Source: Klenkia soli (lineage in GTDB: Bacteria > Actinomycetota > Actinomycetes > Mycobacteriales > Geodermatophilaceae). Taken from it: 64,000 nt of DNA. Positions 30,793 through 64,000 of this stretch are shown here, piece after piece (position 1 is the stretch's first letter; each line of letters begins with the position of its first letter). A program made the position numbers and the translations under genes. A model generated the notes under the pieces. The model saw only the letters and a list, made by a program, of their open reading frames with translations. It was not told the origin of the DNA and searched no databases. The stretch is from NCBI RefSeq assembly GCF_900103975.1, contig NZ_FNIR01000006.1:124001-188000 (forward strand), given 5' to 3'.

Positions 30793-33700
30793 GTGGCCGA
30801 CACCGACGACAACACCACAGCAGAGCCCACCACCGACGGGGTGGGCGAGCAGCAGGACACCACCCCGCCCGACATCCCCGCGGGCGAGCCGGCTCCCGAG
30901 CCGACCGACGAGGAGCCCGCCGTCGAGGACTCGGCGGTCGACGAGACGGTCGTCGCGGAGCCGACCGAGCTGCGCCTGCAGGCCGACGCCGAGACCCTCG
31001 AGGCCGCGGCGATCCCGCCGACCAGGGCGCAGGACGCCCCCGACGAGGCGCCGCGGTTCGGCGCCCAGTTCAGCTCGCCCGAGCCCACCACCGTCACCGC
31101 CCGGCCGCGTCGCCGCGCCACCCGGCCGGCGCTGGCCGCCGACCCGGGCTCGGTCGAGCCAGCTCCGGCCGCCCCGCCGACCGCACCGGCCTTCATCGCG
31201 TTCGTCGCGGCCCCGGCCGACGCCGAGCCCGCCGCCCCGGCCACCCGCCGGCGCAGCCGCCGCACCCAGGCCGAGACCCCGGCCGAGCCGACGGAGGTCT
31301 CCGAGGTCGCCCCGGAGGCCACCGAGGAGCAGGACGAGTCGGCCGGCCGTCCCCGCCGCAGCCGCTCGCGGCGCAAGCCCGCCACCGAGGTCGACCGCCC
31401 CGCCGACGACGAGTCCGTCGTCCTGCCGGCGCCGGACGCCGAGGACGAGAACACCGACGACGCCGACACCGACACCGACGCCGACGACGCCGAGGACCGC
31501 GGTGGTGACGGGGCCGGCAGCCGTCGTCGTCGTCGCGGCCGCCGTGGCCGTGGCCGTGGCCGCACCGGCGAGGACGACGACGGTGCCGACGACACCGACG
31601 CCGCGCAGGACGACGCAGCCGCCGAGGGCGAGGACGCCGAGTCCACCGACGACGACGGCGACACCGACGACGGGGCCGACGCGTCGGGCTCGGGCACGCG
31701 TCGGCGCCGCCGGCGTCGTCGCCGCGGTGGCGAGTCCACCGGGTCCGACACCAGCGACAGCACGGACGACGACCGCCCCGAGCGCGCCGGCCGCAACGGC
31801 CGCGACTCCAGCGACGACGCCGTCAAGGGCGTGGCCGGCTCCACCCGGCTCGAGGCCAAGCGCCAGCGTCGGCGGGACGGCCGGGACACCGGTCGCCGTC
31901 GCGCGCCGATCCTCAGCGAGTCCGAGTTCCTGGCCCGTCGCGAGGCCGTCGACCGCTCGATGGTCATCCGCCAGCAGGGCGAGCGCACCCAGATCGCCGT
32001 CCTCGAGGACGACGTCCTGGTCGAGCACTACGTGACCCAGGCGCAGTCGGCGTCCTTCGCCGGCAACGTCTACCTGGGCCGGGTGCAGAACGTGCTGCCC
32101 TCGATGGAGGCCGCGTTCGTCGACGTCGGCAAGGGCCGCAACGCCGTGCTCTACGCCGGTGAGGTCAACTGGGAGACCGCGGGGCTCTCGGGCAAGTCGC
32201 GCTCCATCGAGCAGGCGCTGAAGTCCGGCGACAAGGTCCTGGTGCAGGTCACGAAGGACCCGATCGGGCACAAGGGCGCCCGGCTGACCCAGCAGATCAA
32301 CCTGCCCGGCCGCTTCCTGGTCTACGTGCCCGGCGGCTCGATGACCGGGATCAGCCGCAAGCTGCCCGACAACGAGCGTCAGCGGCTCAAGGACATCCTC
32401 AAGAAGATCGTCCCCGAGGACGCCGGCGTCATCATCCGCACGGCCGCCGAGGGGGCCTCCGAGGAGGAGCTCACCCGCGACGTCGCCCGGCTGCAGGCGC
32501 AGTGGGAGGTCATCCAGACGAAGGCCGCCTCGGCCTCCTCTGCCCCGACGCTGCTGTACGGCGAGCCCGACCTGGCGATCCGGGTCATCCGCGACGTGTT
32601 CAACGAGGACTTCAAGCGGCTGGTCGTGCAGGGCGACGACGCGTGGGACACCGTCGAGGCATACGTCGCGCACGTCTCCCCGGAGCTGTCGCAGCGATTG
32701 GAGCGGTTCATCGGCAACGGTGACGTGTTCCGCGACCTGCGCATCGACGAGCAGCTGCTCAAGGCCCTGGACCGCAAGGTCTGGCTGCCCTCGGGCGGGT
32801 CGCTGGTCATCGACCGCACCGAGGCGATGACCGTCGTCGACGTCAACACCGGCAAGTTCACCGGCTCGGGCGGCAACCTCGAGCAGACGGTCACCCGGAA
32901 CAACATCGAGGCCGCCGAGGAGATCGTCCGCCAGCTCCGGCTGCGCGACATCGGCGGCATGATCGTGATCGACTTCATCGACATGGTGCTCGAGAGCAAC
33001 CGCGACCTGGTGCTGCGCCGGCTCACCGAGTGCCTGGGCCGCGACCGCACCAAGCACCAGGTCGCCGAGGTCACCTCGTTGGGCCTGGTGCAGATGACCC
33101 GCAAGCGCGTCGGGCAGGGCCTGCTCGAGGTGTTCAGCGAGAACTGCGAGCACTGCCGCGGCCGCGGCGTGGTCGTGCACCTGGATCCGGTGGACGAGAA
33201 GAAGCGCTCCGGCGGCCAGAACGGCAACGGCAACGGCAACCACGGTGGCCACGGCACGCCGGGGAACGGCGGCCAGGGGAACGGCGGGCACGGCAACGGC
33301 AACCAGGGCGGCGGCCGCGGCCGGGGCGACGACCGGCCCACCGAGGCCGTGCAGGCCGCGCCGGCCGAGGACGACGCACCGGCCACCGGCCCCGAGGGGG
33401 ACACCCCGCAGGAGTCCACCGGCCGGTCCGGTCGGCGCAACCGCGGACGCCGCAACCGTGGCCGCAGCGGTGACGACCAGGTGGCCGAGGACGCCGCCGT
33501 GCTCGCCGCGAGCCACGGGGACGACGCCCAGGTGGACGACGCCGACGACACGGTTCCTGACCTGCAGGACGGCGGCCAGGGCGAGAAGGCCGGTGCCGTC
33601 GAGCCCGACGAGGTCGTGCAGGCGGTCGCCGAGGTGACGCAGGACGAGGTCGAGCCGACCACCGCCGAGCCGGCCAGCACCGAGCCGGCCAGCACCGAGC

Positions 33701-33945
33701 CGGCCAGCACCGAGCCGGCCAGCACCGAGCCGGCCGCCGAGGAGCCGACCGCCGTCGACGACTCCGGCCCGCTCGTGGTCGACGGCGTGCCGCCCCAGGT
33801 GCAGGTGCAGGACGCGCCGGTAGCCGTGGAGCAGCCCGCCGAGCAGCCCGAGCCTCCGGTGGTCGACGAGGCCCCGGCGGCGCCGGTCGCCCGTCCGCGC
33901 CGTCGCCGGGCGGCCAGCCGCCCGGCCGGACCGCCCGTCGAGTGA
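30793..33945 (+). CDS. rne: ribonuclease E/G
   Basis: Endoribonuclease of 1050 aa that starts mRNA decay and processes rRNA. The first 380 residues are low complexity: acidic Glu/Asp stretches alternating with Arg blocks ([14 protein letters not shown]). The catalytic core starts at about residue 385 with an S1 domain (NVYLGRVQNVLPSMEAAFVD). The metal-binding Asp residues are in VVDVNTGKF and MIVIDFIDM (about 680 and 727) and the Zn-link is CEHCRGRG (about 785). The tail has GNGNGNHGGHG runs and four TEPAS repeats. The start GTG 30793 follows AGGAGG by 10 bases; the frame is open from 30652. Long tails at both ends are typical of actinobacterial RNase E. Confidence 0.93.
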   Translation: MADTDDNTTAEPTTDGVGEQQDTTPPDIPAGEPAPEPTDEEPAVEDSAVDETVVAEPTELRLQADAETLEAAAIPPTRAQDAPDEAPRFGAQFSSPEPTTVTARPRRRATRPALAADPGSVEPAPAAPPTAPAFIAFVAAPADAEPAAPATRRRSRRTQAETPAEPTEVSEVAPEATEEQDESAGRPRRSRSRRKPATEVDRPADDESVVLPAPDAEDENTDDADTDTDADDAEDRGGDGAGSRRRRRGRRGRGRGRTGEDDDGADDTDAAQDDAAAEGEDAESTDDDGDTDDGADASGSGTRRRRRRRRRGGESTGSDTSDSTDDDRPERAGRNGRDSSDDAVKGVAGSTRLEAKRQRRRDGRDTGRRRAPILSESEFLARREAVDRSMVIRQQGERTQIAVLEDDVLVEHYVTQAQSASFAGNVYLGRVQNVLPSMEAAFVDVGKGRNAVLYAGEVNWETAGLSGKSRSIEQALKSGDKVLVQVTKDPIGHKGARLTQQINLPGRFLVYVPGGSMTGISRKLPDNERQRLKDILKKIVPEDAGVIIRTAAEGASEEELTRDVARLQAQWEVIQTKAASASSAPTLLYGEPDLAIRVIRDVFNEDFKRLVVQGDDAWDTVEAYVAHVSPELSQRLERFIGNGDVFRDLRIDEQLLKALDRKVWLPSGGSLVIDRTEAMTVVDVNTGKFTGSGGNLEQTVTRNNIEAAEEIVRQLRLRDIGGMIVIDFIDMVLESNRDLVLRRLTECLGRDRTKHQVAEVTSLGLVQMTRKRVGQGLLEVFSENCEHCRGRGVVVHLDPVDEKKRSGGQNGNGNGNHGGHGTPGNGGQGNGGHGNGNQGGGRGRGDDRPTEAVQAAPAEDDAPATGPEGDTPQESTGRSGRRNRGRRNRGRSGDDQVAEDAAVLAASHGDDAQVDDADDTVPDLQDGGQGEKAGAVEPDEVVQAVAEVTQDEVEPTTAEPASTEPASTEPASTEPASTEPAAEEPTAVDDSGPLVVDGVPPQVQVQDAPVAVEQPAEQPEPPVVDEAPAAPVARPRRRRAASRPAGPPVE
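33667..33735 (+). repeat. tandem 15-bp repeat in the rne tail
   Basis: Four perfect 15-bp units (GAGCCGGCCAGCACC) and a 9-bp partial copy encode repeated Glu-Pro-Ala-Ser-Thr. Perfect identity implies recent expansion by slippage. Confidence 0.9.
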
Positions 33946-57096: not shown

Positions 57097-58819
57097 GGTC
57101 GCCGCCGTCCCGGGGCGGGCCACCGTCGTCCTCGCGACGCTGGCGGTCCTGGTCTCGGCGGCCGACACCTACGTCGTCGTCCTCGCCCTGCCCGACATCC
57201 TCACCGGGGTCGGCGTCGGGCTCGACCAGCTGCAGGAGGCGACCCCGATCATCGGGGGCTTCCTGCTCGGCTACACCGCGACGTTGCCGCTGCTGGGCCG
57301 GCTGGCCGACCTCCGGGGCCGGCTCCCGGTGCTTGTCGGCTGCCTGCTGCTGTTCGCCCTCGGGTCGCTGCTGACCGCGACCGCGGTGGCGCTGGGCCCG
57401 GCGGTGCTGGGCCGCGGGCTGCAGGGCATCGGCGCCGGCGGCCTGGTGCCGGCCACGCTCGCCCTGGTCGCCGACCGTTGGCCGCCCGACCGCCGGGCCG
57501 TGCCGCTCGGTGTGGTCGGCGCGGTGCAGGAGGCCGGGGCGGTGCTCGGGCCGCTGGCCGGGGCGGCGATCCTGGCGGTGTGGGACTGGCGGGCGATCTT
57601 CTGGGTGAACCTCGCGCTGGGCGTGGGGCTGGCCGTGGCGCTGCGGGCCTCGGGTCCCCGGCGCCCGGGTCGGGACGTCGTCGGGGTGGCCTTCGCCGTC
57701 GTGGCCGCGAGCGCCCTGGCGCTGCAGCTCGCCGAACCCGAGGCGTTGGTCACCGACGTCACGCTCGGGCTGGCCTGGGTTCCGGTGGCCGGGCCCGGGT
57801 GGACGACGCCGCTGGTGCTCGTCGCGGTGCTCGGCGCCGCCGGCGTGCTGGTCCGGTCGGCCACCGCCGCGCACCCGGTGCTGCCCCTGCGCGGCCTCCC
57901 GGCGCTGGCCCGCGAGGTCGACGTCCTCGGTGCCGTGCTCGTGGTGGTCGCGCTGGGCAGCCTGGTCTGGGCCTTCGCCGCCGCCGACCCGGCCACCCAG
58001 GTCGTCGCCCACGGGCCGGTGCTGCTCCCGGTGGCGGCGGTCGCCGCGGTGGCCTTCGTGCTGCACGAGCGCCGCACGGCGGAGCCGCTGCTGCCGTTGA
58101 CCGAGCTGCGGCCGGTGGGCGCGTGGGGTGCGCTGGTGGTGAACGTGCTGGTCGGGGTCGCGCTGGTGGCGGCGCTGGTCGACGTCCCGCTGTTCGCCCG
58201 TGCGACCACCGAGGCCGACCAGCTGGGTGCGGCCCTGGTGCTGGTCGAGCTGCTGGTCGCCGTGCCGATCGGCGCGGTCGCCGGGGGCTGGCTGTGCCGG
58301 CGGGTGGCCCCGCGCTGGATCGCCGGCGGCGGCATGGCCCTGGCCGCCCTGGCCTTCGTGGCGATGACCCGGTGGGACGCCACCTCGCTGGACAGCTGGA
58401 CCTCCACGGTCGCCCTGGTCGCAGCCGGGCTCGGGTTCGGGCTGGCGGTGGCCCCGGTGAACACGGTGCTGCTGGTCGTCACGCCGTCCCGGGTGCACGG
58501 CAGCGCGAGCTCACTCGTGGTCGTGGCCCGCACCGTGGGCATGCTGGTCGGGCTGTCGCTGCTGACCGCGATCGCGCTGCGCCGGTTCACCGCGGTGGTC
58601 CGCGACATCCCGAGCCCGCTGGTCAGCTGCCCGACCAGCCCGGGCGACTGCGCGGTGTACGACCGTGCGGTGGACGCCGCCGTCCTCACCCAGCTGCACA
58701 CCGTGTTCGCCGGCGCCGCGGTGGCCGCCACTCTGGCGGCGGTCGCGGCCGTGGTCCTGCTCCGCGGCGGTGATCAGCTGGGTTCACCCACGGCCGTCCT
58801 GGCTCACCGGCGCCCGTGA
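57065..58819 (+). CDS. MFS transporter, P55-like, partner of the LprG-like lipoprotein
   Basis: Major facilitator protein of 584 aa with about 14 hydrophobic segments (DHA2 class). Motif A is GRLADLRGRLPVL, and a motif C-like GAVQEAGAVLGPLAG is in the fifth segment; ADTYVVVLALPDI opens the first. The ATG at 57065 overlaps the lipoprotein gene by 32 bp. The extracytoplasmic segment near the end has two Cys (SCPTSPGDC). The last codons lie in a long hairpin. Export of lipid or drugs together with the lipoprotein is the expected role. Confidence 0.88.
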   Translation: MSRSPRRPPAEVAAVPGRATVVLATLAVLVSAADTYVVVLALPDILTGVGVGLDQLQEATPIIGGFLLGYTATLPLLGRLADLRGRLPVLVGCLLLFALGSLLTATAVALGPAVLGRGLQGIGAGGLVPATLALVADRWPPDRRAVPLGVVGAVQEAGAVLGPLAGAAILAVWDWRAIFWVNLALGVGLAVALRASGPRRPGRDVVGVAFAVVAASALALQLAEPEALVTDVTLGLAWVPVAGPGWTTPLVLVAVLGAAGVLVRSATAAHPVLPLRGLPALAREVDVLGAVLVVVALGSLVWAFAAADPATQVVAHGPVLLPVAAVAAVAFVLHERRTAEPLLPLTELRPVGAWGALVVNVLVGVALVAALVDVPLFARATTEADQLGAALVLVELLVAVPIGAVAGGWLCRRVAPRWIAGGGMALAALAFVAMTRWDATSLDSWTSTVALVAAGLGFGLAVAPVNTVLLVVTPSRVHGSASSLVVVARTVGMLVGLSLLTAIALRRFTAVVRDIPSPLVSCPTSPGDCAVYDRAVDAAVLTQLHTVFAGAAVAATLAAVAAVVLLRGGDQLGSPTAVLAHRRP

Positions 58820-58851
58820 GCCAGGACGCGCGGTGCTGAACCCAGCTGATC
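58772..58851. terminator. 80-nt two-part hairpin over the 3' end of the MFS gene
   Basis: The outer arms 58772-58786 and 58837-58851 form a perfect 15-bp stem; the inner arms 58795-58807 and 58816-58828 form a perfect 13-bp stem with an 8-nt loop, and three more pairs lie between. The MFS stop codon (58817-58819) is inside the inner right arm. It lies between convergent genes and probably terminates both. Its size is unusual and it could also be a mobile palindromic repeat. Confidence 0.7.
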
Positions 58852-58869
58852 CACGCCGGGGTGCGCGCG

Positions 58870-59871: not shown

Positions 59872-60867
59872 CTACCGGACGACGACGGCGAACTCCCCGG
59901 CGGCCACGAACTCGCCGATCACCGGTGCACCCGGGACCTCGCCGGCCAGCAGCAGGCCGCCGGAGGTCTGGGCGTCGGCGAGCAGCAGCGCGTCGTCGTC
60001 GGTCGCCGCGGTGAGGTCGGTGTGCGGGCGCACCCAGTCCAGGTTCCGGCGGGTGCCCCCGGACACGTAGCCGTCGGCGACGGCCTGGCGGGCGCCGGCC
60101 AGGTAGGGGACGTCGGCGGCGCTGACCACCGCGGTGACCCCGCTGGCCCGGGCCATCTTGTAGAGGTGGCCGAGCAGGCCGAACCCGGTGACGTCGGTGC
60201 CGGCCCGGATGCCCGCCGCGACCGCGGCCACCGAGGCCTCGGCGTTGAGGCGGGTCATGGAGTCGACGGCCTCGGGCGAGGGCTCCCCGGTGGCCTTCAT
60301 CCGGTTGTTGAGCGTGCCGACGCCCAGCGGCTTGGTCAGCGAGATGGCGTCGCCGGCGGCGGCACGGTCGTTGCGGATCAGCCGGTCGAGGTCAACCAGG
60401 CCCGTGACCGCCATGCCGTAGGTGGGCTCGGGGGAGTCGATGCTGTGCCCGCCGCCGACGTGGCAGCCGGCGGCGTGCGCGACCTCGAGCCCGCCACGCA
60501 GCACCTCCGCGGCCAGCTCGGCGGGGAGCACGTCGCGCGGCCAACCGAGCAGGTTCACCGCGACCACGGGTGTGCCGCCCATGGCGTAGACGTCGCTCAG
60601 CGCGTTGGCGGCGGCGATCCGGCCGAAGTCGTAGGCGTCGTCCACGACCGGGGTGAAGAAGTCCGTGGTGAGCACCAGGCCGCGGCCGTCGGGCAGCCGC
60701 ACCACCGCGGCGTCGTCGCCGTCGTCCAGGCCGACGACCAGCTCGGTGGCGGGGTCGCGCGGGCCGGTGTGCGTCAGGCCGGCGACGACGGCCTCCAACT
60801 CGCCGGGCGGGATCTTGCAGGCGCACCCGCCGCCGTGGGCGTAGGTGGTCAGGCGGATGGCAGTCAC
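59872..60867 (-). CDS. selD: selenophosphate synthetase
   Basis: Enzyme of 331 aa that makes selenophosphate, the selenium donor for SelA. The active-site loop HGGGCACKIPPGEL has Cys at the catalytic place (TGC), not a recoded stop, and the catalytic Lys follows. DDAAVV, TTDFFTPVVDD and GHLYKMA are family segments. The GTG at 60867 is 6 bases after TACGGT on the minus strand. It ends in TAG. It diverges from tRNA-Sec with 27 bp between. Confidence 0.93.
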   Translation of the reverse strand: MTAIRLTTYAHGGGCACKIPPGELEAVVAGLTHTGPRDPATELVVGLDDGDDAAVVRLPDGRGLVLTTDFFTPVVDDAYDFGRIAAANALSDVYAMGGTPVVAVNLLGWPRDVLPAELAAEVLRGGLEVAHAAGCHVGGGHSIDSPEPTYGMAVTGLVDLDRLIRNDRAAAGDAISLTKPLGVGTLNNRMKATGEPSPEAVDSMTRLNAEASVAAVAAGIRAGTDVTGFGLLGHLYKMARASGVTAVVSAADVPYLAGARQAVADGYVSGGTRRNLDWVRPHTDLTAATDDDALLLADAQTSGGLLLAGEVPGAPVIGEFVAAGEFAVVVR

Positions 60868-60894: not shown

Positions 60895-60987
60895 GGAGGC
60901 GTCAGGGTGTCTGGTGACCCCCGCGGCCTCTAAAGCCGACGTGGCCCGGTATCCGGGTCAGGCGGGTTCGATTCCCGTCCGCCTCCG
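60895..60987 (+). tRNA. selC: tRNA-Sec with anticodon CTA (reads UAG)
   Basis: 93 nt to the discriminator G; the next bases are CCG, so CCA is not encoded. Acceptor GGAGGCG pairs with CGCCTCC, with an eighth position T-C mismatch; the T arm is GCGGG/CCCGT with a G-T pair as in other tRNA-Sec. The long variable arm is an 8-bp stem (60942-60949 with 60953-60960) with a TAT loop, the hallmark of tRNA-Sec. The anticodon loop is CTCTAAA (60928-60934) closed by CGGC/GCCG, giving anticodon CTA at 60930-60932 instead of the normal TCA. The D stem has one mismatch or bulge. It is flanked by selD and selA, which confirms identity. Confidence 0.93.
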
Positions 60988-61006: not shown

Positions 61007-62287
61007 ATGACCACAGACCCCCGCCGGCTGGTGCCGCGCACCGACGTCCTGCTGGCCGACCCGCGGGTCGCGGCGTCCGCCGCCCGACTCGGCCGCGAGC
61101 TGGTCAAGTCGGTCGTGGTGGAGGTGCAGCAGCGGGTCCGGTCCGGCGAGGTCGGGCCGGACGCCGCCGCCGACGCCGTGGTGGCTGCGCTGCCGGTGAG
61201 CGCGTCGTCCCTGCACCGGGTGCTCAACGCGACCGGCGTGCTGGTGCACACCAACCTCGGCCGTGCGCCCTGGTCCGCCGCTGCCGTCGATGCCGTGGTC
61301 GCGGCCAGCGGCACCACCGACGTCGAGCTCGACCTGGCCACCGGCCGGCGCGGTCCCCGCGGCGAGGGCGCGATCGGTGCGCTGCTGGCCGCCGTCCCGG
61401 CCGCGCAGGCCGCGGTCGTGGTCAACAACTGCGCCGCCGCGCTCGCGCTGGTCGCCACCTGCCTCGGCGGCGAGCTGGTGGTCGCCCGCGGCGAGCTCGT
61501 CGAGATCGGCGACGGGTTCCGCATCCCGGACCTGCTCGTCTCCACCGGGGCCCGCCTGCGCGAGGTCGGGACGACGAACCGGGTCGCCCTCGCCGACTAC
61601 ACCGACGCCGTCGGCCCGGACACCGGCGCGGTGCTCAAGATCCACCCGTCGAACTTCGTGGTCCGCGGGTTCACCCGGTCCGTCGAGGTCGCCGAGCTGG
61701 CCGGCGCCGTCGACGTCCCGGTGGTCGCCGACGTCGGCTCCGGCCTGCTGGCCCCGCACCCCGCGCTGCCCGACGAGCCCGACCTGCAGACCACCCTGGC
61801 CGCCGGCGCCGACCTGGTGCTGTGCAGCGGGGACAAGCTGCTCGGCGGCCCGCAGGCCGGCCTCGTGCTGGGCCGCGCCGACCTGGTGCAGCGGCTGCGC
61901 CGCCACCCGCTCTACCGCGCGCTCCGGGTCGACAAGACGACGCTGGCGGCGTTGGAGGCCACGCTCCGCGGACCGCAGCCGCCGGTGCAGCGGATGCTCG
62001 CCGTCCCGGTCGAGGTGCTGCGTGCCCGGGCGGAGGCGGTCGTCGCCGCGCTGGGCGGGGATGCGCACGTCGTGGACGCCGGGGCCCGGGTCGGCGGCGG
62101 GGGAGCGCCCGAGTTCGAGCTGCCGAGCGTCGCCGTCTCGCTGCCGGCCTCCTGCGCCGAGCCGCTGCGGCTCGGCGCGCCGCCGGTCGTCGGGTACCTG
62201 GCCGACGGGCGGACGCTGCTGGACCTGCGCAGCCTGGACCCCGCCGACGACGAGACCCTGGTGCAGGCGGTCCGCGCATGCCGGTGA
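61007..62287 (+). CDS. selA: L-seryl-tRNA(Sec) selenium transferase
   Basis: PLP enzyme of 426 aa that converts Ser-tRNA-Sec to Sec-tRNA-Sec. [28 protein letters not shown] and the PLP lysine in [13 protein letters not shown] (about residue 276) are diagnostic. The ATG at 61007 lies 19 bp after the tRNA-Sec discriminator, so the tRNA is likely excised from a common transcript. selB begins 4 bp after the stop. Confidence 0.95.
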
Positions 62288-62291
62288 CAGC

Positions 62292-64000
62292 GTGCAGGTG
62301 ATCGCCACCGCGGGGCACGTCGACCACGGCAAGTCCTCGCTGGTCACGGCGCTGACCGGCATGCAGCCCGACCGGTGGGAGGAGGAGCGCCGGCGCGGCC
62401 TCACCATCGACCTCGGGTTCGCCTGGACCACCCTGCCCGGCGGTCGCACGGTCGCCGTCGTGGACGTGCCCGGCCACGAGCGCTTCGTCGGGAACATGCT
62501 CGCCGGGGTGGGCTCGGTGCCCGCCGCGCTGGTGGTGGTGGCCGCCGACGACGGGTGGTCGGCGCAGACCGCCGAGCACGTCGCGGTGCTCGACGCCCTC
62601 GGGGTGCGCGACGCGCTGCTGGTGGTCACCAAGTCCGACCTCGCCGACCCCGCGCCGGTGCTCGCCGACGTGCGGGCGCGGCTGGCCGAGACCTCGCTCG
62701 GCGACGTCCCCGGGGTCGCCGCCAGCTCGCGCACCGGTGACGGCGTGCCGGCGGTCGCCGCGGCCCTGGAGGAGCTGCTGGCCGGGCTGCCCGCCCCGGA
62801 CACCACCGCGCCGGTCCGGCTGTGGGTCGACCGCACCTTCACCATCCGCGGCGCCGGCACCGTGGTCACCGGCACCCTGGCGGCGGGCACGGTGCGCACC
62901 GGGGACCGGCTGGCGCTGGCTGGTCGGGACGTCGTCGTCCGCGGGCTGCAGTCCCTCGGCCAACCGGTCGAGGCGGCCCGGGCGACCGCCCGGGTGGCGC
63001 TGAACCTGCGCGGCGTCGCGGTCGAGGACATCTCCCGCGGCGACGCGCTGCTGACCCCCGACGCCTTCCGGTCGACGGGCGAGCTGGACGTCGTCCTCGT
63101 CCACCCGGCGCAGCGGCTGCCGGCCGAGCTCGTGGTGCACGTCGGCTCGGCCACGGTCGCCGCCCGGGTGCGCCCGCTGGACGACGCCACCGTGCGGCTG
63201 CGGCTGGGTGGACCGCTGCCGCTGCGGGTGGGGGACCGGCTGCTGCTGCGCGACCCCGGCACCCGCACGGTGCACGGCGCGGACGTGGCCGACGTCGACC
63301 CGCCCGAGCTGCGCCGGCGCGGGGCGGCGCGGGTGCGGGCCGCGGACCTCACCGCCGGGTGGGACGCCGATGCCGACCTGGCCCGCCGCCAGGTGGTGCT
63401 CCGGTCGGAGTTCGTCGCGATGGGCTGGCCGGTGCCGTCCGGGGCCACCGAGGTGGGTCGCTGGTTGCTGGCGCCCGGCCTGGCCGACGAGCTGGCCGCG
63501 CGGGTGCCGGCCGTCGTCGCCCGCTACCGGCAGCTGCGGCCGTTGGAGCCGGGGCCGCCGACGGCGGTGCTGCGCAGTGCGCTTGAGCTGCCCGACGCCG
63601 AGCTGGTCGCCGGGCTGGTGCGGCCGCCCTTGGCACTGCGCGACGGCCGGGTGGTCGCCACCGACAGCGGACTGCCCGAGCCGGTGCAGCGGGCGGTGAC
63701 CGGCGTCCTGGCCCGGCTCGCCGTAGAGCCGTTCGCCGCCCCGGACACCGAGGCGCTGGCCGCCGCCGGGCTGGGTCCGCGCGAGCTCGCCGCAGCGGTC
63801 CGGGACGGTCAGCTGGTCCGGATCGCCGACGGCGTGGTGCTCGCCCCCGGCGTCGAGGACCGGGCGCGGCGGGCACTGGCCGCGGTGCCCCAGCCGTTCA
63901 CGCTCAGCCAGGCGCGGCAGGCCTGGGGCACCTCGCGTCGCGTCGCCGTCCCGCTGGCGGAGTGGCTGGACGCCCGCGGGGTGACAGAGCGGCTGCCCGA
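62292..64000 (+). CDS. selB: selenocysteine-specific elongation factor SelB, 3' end cut off by the window edge
   Basis: GTPase that carries Sec-tRNA-Sec to the ribosome and binds the SECIS element of the mRNA. 569 complete codons are visible of the usual 580-620. G1 is GHVDHGKS (residues 8-15), [13 protein letters not shown] is the switch region, G3 DVPGHERF, G4 TKSD. EF-Tu-like domains 2 and 3 follow ([17 protein letters not shown]), then winged-helix repeats from about residue 380 that bind SECIS RNA. The start GTG 62292 gives [13 protein letters not shown]. In this system it should work with UAG-SECIS pairs. Confidence 0.95.

Follow-up and report, generated by a model that had tools for sequence, protein, structure and literature searches.

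The canonical bacterial system for selenocysteine (Sec), that of E. coli, comprises selC, selA, selB, selD and fdhF, reads UGA, and has the apical loop GGUCU in its SECIS hairpin. Pyrrolysine, by comparison, is inserted at UAG with a tRNA that carries a CUA anticodon and whose architecture includes a short variable loop. UAG-directed Sec was reportedly described by Mukai et al. in 2016 (Angew Chem) in Geodermatophilus and Blastococcus, with a CUA tRNA-Sec, TAG in the formate dehydrogenase (FDH) gene and 75Se labelling. Santesmasses et al. 2017 (PMC5330540) name three Geodermatophilaceae genomes with a CUA tRNA-Sec found by Secmarker, citing Mukai et al. 2016, and give TAG for the FDH and UGSC selenoproteins of these genomes, with AhpC added. 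Extracts of two further papers give UAG as the Sec codon of some bacteria (PMC8124441; PMC10778597), and in those of PMC7609411, PMC9723677 and PMC9499178 such a use of UAG is not mentioned. UAG-Sec in Geodermatophilaceae has thus been in print since 2016-17, and Klenkia is a well-supported further case.

We analysed 64,000 nucleotides of Klenkia soli DNA (the window; positions 124,001–188,000 of contig C6). Comparison of this DNA with other genomes indicates that the bacterium most probably inserts Sec at UAG by means of a CUA tRNA-Sec, SelA, SelB, SelD and SECIS hairpins, a reading to which we give a probability of about 0.96. Like the system of Mukai et al. 2016, which comes from the same family, it has a CUA tRNA-Sec and carries TAG at the Sec site of FDH; beyond Geodermatophilus and Blastococcus, the CUA tRNA-Sec extends to Klenkia, Modestobacter, Goekera and Trujillonella. 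The same two features link it to the three genomes of PMC5330540, which also bears out the remark in an earlier reading of the window, made from the sequence alone, that the principle was already known in Geodermatophilus and Blastococcus. In the literature searched we found no paper linking Klenkia with selenocysteine and none naming WAxxUGC, the motif of the second selenoprotein described below, which the available text of known UAG-Sec accounts does not name either. Within that search, three points are new: Klenkia itself, TAG in a WAxxUGC client, and the contrast between CUA and UCA genera inside a single family.

The tRNA-Sec gene and its neighbours

The tRNA-Sec gene (selC) lies on the forward strand at positions 60895–60987 of the window and matches the Rfam tRNA-Sec model RF01852 over its full length (model positions 1–91 of 91; 67.3 bits, gathering score 47, E 1.5e-11). 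Read directly, the tRNA body spans 60895–60986, the discriminator is the G at 60987, and the anticodon loop CTCTAAA occupies 60928–60934; CCA is only partly encoded (GCCG). The anticodon, CTA (CUA in the tRNA) at 60930–60932 of the forward strand, position 36 in ARAGORN's numbering, is the complement of UAG. The sequence-only reading, which had called a tRNA-Sec with a CUA anticodon here, is therefore upheld by both the model score and the anticodon. ARAGORN detects the same interval and labels it tRNA-Pyl, because the anticodon is CTA.

Folded alone, the tRNA reaches −53 kcal/mol (z −4.15), a stability equalled by none of 200 shuffled sequences, and forms a 13-bp acceptor plus T stack and an 8-bp variable arm. 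Among 14 distinct Geodermatophilaceae tRNAs (11 with CUA, 3 with UCA) all 462 pair cells hold standard pairs, a count made on the window tRNA's own fold, which favours good pairing. Changes on both sides were seen in 6 of the 33 pairs, a level reached in 1 of 500 shuffles; the count of further pair types in this alignment of 14 lay within the shuffles (445 of 500). Elsewhere in the window, at 33680–33771, ARAGORN also called a tRNA-Arg (tcg), which has no Rfam support at the gathering score and is likely a false call.

The tRNA gene sits between selD and selA-selB, as the sequence-only reading had it. On the reverse strand, selD (selenide water dikinase; 59872–60867) scores 385 bits against TIGR00476 (cut-off 125), and its own stop codon is TAG. 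On the forward strand, selA (L-seryl-tRNA(Sec) selenium transferase, 426 aa; 61007–62287) scores 406.7 bits against TIGR00474 (cut-off 267.9), and its product is 91% identical to SelA of Klenkia terrae and 89–90% identical to those of three other Klenkia. The gene for the Sec-specific elongation factor, selB, follows at 62292–64000, also on the forward strand, and the part of it within the window scores 272.4 bits against TIGR00475 (cut-off 242.25). All four genes had been described as intact within the window; this is accurate for selD, the tRNA gene and selA, whereas selB loses its last 22 nt at the window end and is complete on the contig (to 64022; 576 aa, start codon present). Elsewhere in the window, at 58759–58864, between convergent genes for an MFS transporter and a quinone oxidoreductase, we noted a large imperfect inverted repeat with two 53-nt arms, 81% complementary and without spacer, possibly a two-way terminator.

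The genome that contains the window (4.76 Mb in 25 contigs, 99.98% complete) was searched as a whole with RF01852. Besides the gene described above, four matches were found, one of them barely above the cut-off (47.2 bits), and ARAGORN identifies these as three tRNA-Ser and one tRNA-Arg. In this genome-wide search, then, there was no second tRNA-Sec and none with a UCA anticodon, a finding that would have spoken against UAG as the Sec codon. Stop codon use in the window shows that TAG is also an ordinary stop: among 37 crudely chosen ORFs, 8 (selD included) end in TAG, 29 in TGA and none in TAA. Sec insertion must therefore depend on context.

In-frame TAG codons and the hairpins behind them

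The genome has five matches to the molybdopterin oxidoreductase family PF00384, and one of these, on another contig (C15), contains a stop codon, a single TAG. This gene encodes the actinobacterial formate dehydrogenase FdhA (NF041513, 1899.7 bits, cut-off 1400); it has 1088 codons, with the TAG in frame at codon 187 in the context NQARI-TAG-HSATVPG, the FDH Sec site. The frame 3′ of the TAG remains coding-like over 510 codons, with a GC3 of 0.98. Eleven nucleotides after the TAG begins a hairpin, GGTGCCC-GGTCT-GGGTGCC, whose GGTCT loop and spacing are those of the E. coli fdhF SECIS. The FDH check proposed together with the sequence-only reading, for a TAG-interrupted gene followed by a hairpin, thus gave a positive result, and a second gene has TAG as well.

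This second gene, on contig C10, is the only one with TAG among seven matches to PF00578 (AhpC-TSA). It belongs to NF041054, “ResA-like WAxxUGC motif-containing protein” (WAxxUGC_long; 442.4 bits, cut-off 300), and its TAG, in the context SWAPW-TAG-GCAFDLPGW, stands at the U of the WAxxUGC motif. Among 112 genomes of the family the protein occurs in three others, at 65–70% identity, and each of the four genes has one TAG. Behind the TAG, starting 14 nt downstream, the DNA can form the hairpin CCTGCC-CGGGT-GGCAGG (−9.3 kcal/mol alone), although another fold is preferred in some longer segments. The hairpin is identical in all four loci, and because of this identity the stem offers no covariation signal. 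The ResA-like gene is the weaker of the two SECIS cases, its loop being less canonical.

TAG at the Sec site of both selenoprotein genes found supports the claim that UAG is the codon read by this tRNA-Sec. No TGA at a Sec site, which would have argued against it, was seen in this genome with the PF00384, UGSC and AhpC-TSA families and an AhpD-like query. UGSC itself has no match in any of nine Klenkia genomes, this one included, and the only AhpC-TSA gene with TAG is the ResA-like one, a difference from the UGSC and AhpC clients given in PMC5330540. Elsewhere in the family, 22 of 30 fetched UGSC loci have TAG and the other eight TGC; that is, Cys replaces Sec in the UGSC-family genes of eight Geodermatophilaceae genomes.

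The hairpins behind these codons are conserved as well. At all 30 FdhA loci fetched, TAG stands at the Sec codon with a GGTCT-loop element behind it, and the 22 UGSC loci with TAG have an element at the same distance, with the loop AGTGT in 21 and AGTCT in one. From 52 FdhA and UGSC loci, which hold 27 distinct elements, we aligned 16 distinct 33-nt forms; 96.4% of the stem cells pair and both partners differ in 5 of the 7 pairs, on a stem model drawn from the very sequences tested. Neither the pairing nor the covariation score was reached in any of 500 shuffles, and sliding the strands against each other destroys the pairing; both-side changes (39 of 500 shuffles) and pair types (50 of 500) do not stand out in these 16 forms. 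With FdhA alone (11 forms), 97.4% of the cells pair, both partners differ in 2 of the 7 pairs, and 1 of 500 shuffles reached the observed values for pairing and covariation; again both-side changes (114 of 500) and further pair types (69 of 500) were not exceptional. These comparisons indicate that the fdhA SECIS hairpin is under selection.

A SECIS covariance model scanned over the genome gives 54 bits for FdhA and 41 weaker matches of at most 22.4 bits, having scored 150 of 23,613 first-look candidates, so that other elements may be missed. Thirty of the matches were fetched and judged by eye from their GC at codon positions; among these, FdhA alone has a TAG within a frame that appears coding before and after it. 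The scan does not recover the ResA-like element, and is therefore not exhaustive. This bears on the earlier statement that the window holds no selenoprotein gene: the model's maximum there is 15.5 bits, in agreement with the statement, but, given the missed ResA-like element, such absence is not proven.

In one Klenkia genome (G079) the CUA tRNA is present and both copies of fdhA (contigs C12 and C4) are without the Sec codon and the hairpin, with the same right-hand junction in each. The loss is probably an assembly error in two near-identical copies.

Distribution of the two anticodons and the decoding of UAG

The CUA anticodon arm was found in 101 of 112 genomes of the family, base for base save at one A/G site. 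This makes a sequencing error that turned TCA into CTA in the window very unlikely. The arm is missing in nine genomes of three genera (g6–g8) and in two incomplete assemblies. The nine are MAG-like; seven of them have a UCA tRNA-Sec, and no tRNA-Sec was read for the other two. Leaving g6–g8 aside, 103 family genomes remain, and by hand count 98 of these have a single TAG, no more, in their FdhA stretch; G079 and four incomplete assemblies (67–81%) make up the rest. In two of these assemblies the FdhA fragments do not cover the site, and in the other two even the best match is weak. The nine g6–g8 genomes have no close FdhA (best E 1e-21 or weaker; one without any match). These counts support the UAG-Sec code as a trait of nearly the whole family rather than a peculiarity of a handful of strains.

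Outside the family the same gene carries the other codon. We drew 348 genomes from across the order and counted by hand in the 150 best FdhA rows: the codon is TAG in each of the 36 from the family and TGA in each of the 114 from other families (two of the 114 carry an extra TAG). Inspection of three of the TGA loci confirmed that TGA is the Sec codon there and that a hairpin follows it. In 80 named SelA loci we read CTA in 46 and TCA in 27, and 7 had no tRNA-Sec in the locus DNA examined. The CTA loci are labelled as Klenkia, Geodermatophilus, Blastococcus, Modestobacter, Goekera, Trujillonella, unnamed family members, one “Frankiales” and one unverified “Bacillus”. The last, Bacillus sp. AZ43, has a CUA tRNA-Sec and a SelA that falls among Blastococcus in the tree, and is probably mislabelled.

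A SelA tree of 85 rows unites the 47 CTA rows in one clade (100/100) and requires a single change of anticodon, a number as low as which was obtained in none of 500 label shuffles. Four UCA rows from g7 and g8 are not part of that clade. One switch from UCA to CUA would thus suffice, and the tree allows a single origin without proving it. The genera g6–g8, we infer, branch early in Geodermatophilaceae. Between UCA and CUA tRNA-Sec of the family, the anticodon arm differs by U34C, C35U and a closing pair changed from U-A to C-G. Since two anticodon bases changed, the path would have led via UUA (which would read UAA), via CCA (which would read UGG), or through both changes at once; neither a UUA nor a CCA tRNA-Sec is among the anticodons read in the SelA loci and family genomes. 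A family with CUA beside relatives with UCA, and with TGA in the same gene elsewhere, is a natural experiment on moving a stop codon. Five selA loci that branch beside the CTA clade (lineages there include a MAG of the family, Saccharopolyspora, Halosaccharopolyspora and a Pseudonocardia MAG) showed no tRNA-Sec in the locus DNA; their anticodon could bear on the switch.

What the sequence shows, namely the tRNA, the sel genes around it, TAG at the codons it would read and the hairpins, leads us to propose the following scheme, in which charging, SelB delivery and actual Sec insertion are modelled on the established bacterial Sec pathway. The UCA anticodon of tRNA-Sec would have given way to CUA in a common ancestor of most Geodermatophilaceae. 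The CUA tRNA-Sec would be charged with serine by seryl-tRNA synthetase, SelA would turn the serine into Sec using selenophosphate from SelD, and SelB would bring the Sec-tRNA to a ribosome standing at a UAG that is followed 11–14 nt later by a SECIS hairpin; a UAG without SECIS would remain the end of translation. The predicted clients in this genome are FdhA and the ResA-like WAxxUGC protein. The genes, tRNA architecture, SECIS spacing and GGUCU apical loop are those of the E. coli UGA system; in contrast to it, CUA replaces UCA here, and the competitor of the tRNA would be RF1 rather than RF2.

Two of the explanations that compete with this scheme deny Sec altogether. A pyrrolysine tRNA, with the TAGs encoding pyrrolysine, would account for the CTA anticodon, for UAG as the codon and for the ARAGORN label. 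The similarity ends there, however: the tRNA matches RF01852 over its full length, has the variable arm and the acceptor-T stack described above in place of the tRNA-Pyl architecture, adjoins selD, selA and selB, and has as its clients genes of selenoprotein families with TAG at the Sec site. Structure, neighbourhood and clients being those of a Sec system, we rejected this identity as exceedingly improbable. Slightly less remote, though still very improbable, is a decayed selenium system, in which the tRNA would be dead and the TAGs nonsense mutations. The two damaged fdhA copies of G079 point that way, though an assembly error may explain them, and the idea is hard to reconcile with the FdhA TAG kept in 98 of 103 genomes, the compensatory changes in both tRNA and SECIS stems, the coding-like frame that continues past the TAG of fdhA, and intact selD, selA and selB. 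We rejected it on the strength of the conservation and the compensatory changes.

The other competing explanation keeps Sec and drops the context: UAG would be reassigned to Sec throughout the genome, with no SECIS recoding. According to PMC10778597, a CUA tRNA-Sec in engineered E. coli without RF1 indeed inserts Sec without SECIS. In the genome studied here, in contrast, TAG still ends 8 of the 37 crudely chosen ORFs of the window, selD among them, hairpins with compensatory changes stand behind the Sec TAGs, and SelB is encoded. Because TAG has kept its role as a stop in the window, we consider general reassignment as improbable as the pyrrolysine tRNA, and SECIS-dependent insertion of Sec at UAG the best explanation of the locus.

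Two tRNA-Sec genes in one Geodermatophilus genome

One Geodermatophilus genome (G059) has the CUA tRNA-Sec and FdhA and UGSC matches with TAG, together with a second tRNA-Sec whose anticodon is UCA (81.8 bits; contig C17, 1173–1263). Only 0.3 kb from the latter lies an AhpD-like gene (TIGR01926, 112.6 bits, cut-off 81.8) with an in-frame TGA at its second Cys position, CFY-TGA-MESHAEF, and a 7-bp hairpin behind. Within the family, the nearest relative of this gene is only 40% identical. The stretch C17:1–6000 is low in GC (59–65%), is flanked on both sides by transposase-like frames (recognized by eye) and forms the end of a 69-kb contig. It is conceivable, if somewhat doubtful, that G059 uses two Sec codons at once, a mobile UGA-selenoprotein cassette with its own tRNA having landed in a UAG-Sec host whose SelA and SelB it would use. 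Should such a dual code be real, a lineage that has gone over to UAG could regain UGA-Sec genes, provided that these arrive with a tRNA of their own. A plasmid source for the TGA gene was not found; 333 plasmid records match it, all below 60% identity.

Alternatively, the arrangement may come from contamination or from a false join at an insertion sequence. In tetranucleotide composition, the rest of C17 correlates with two other G059 contigs at r 0.74–0.87 and with unrelated actinobacteria at 0.65–0.76; for the first part of this remainder the contrast is small (0.78 against up to 0.76). One protein of C17 is 78% identical to one in another genome (G054), but only 4 of the 26 genomes of the genus have a match to it. 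One 20-kb part of the contig, in turn, has frames that resemble heme-synthesis and other chromosomal genes, as named by eye.
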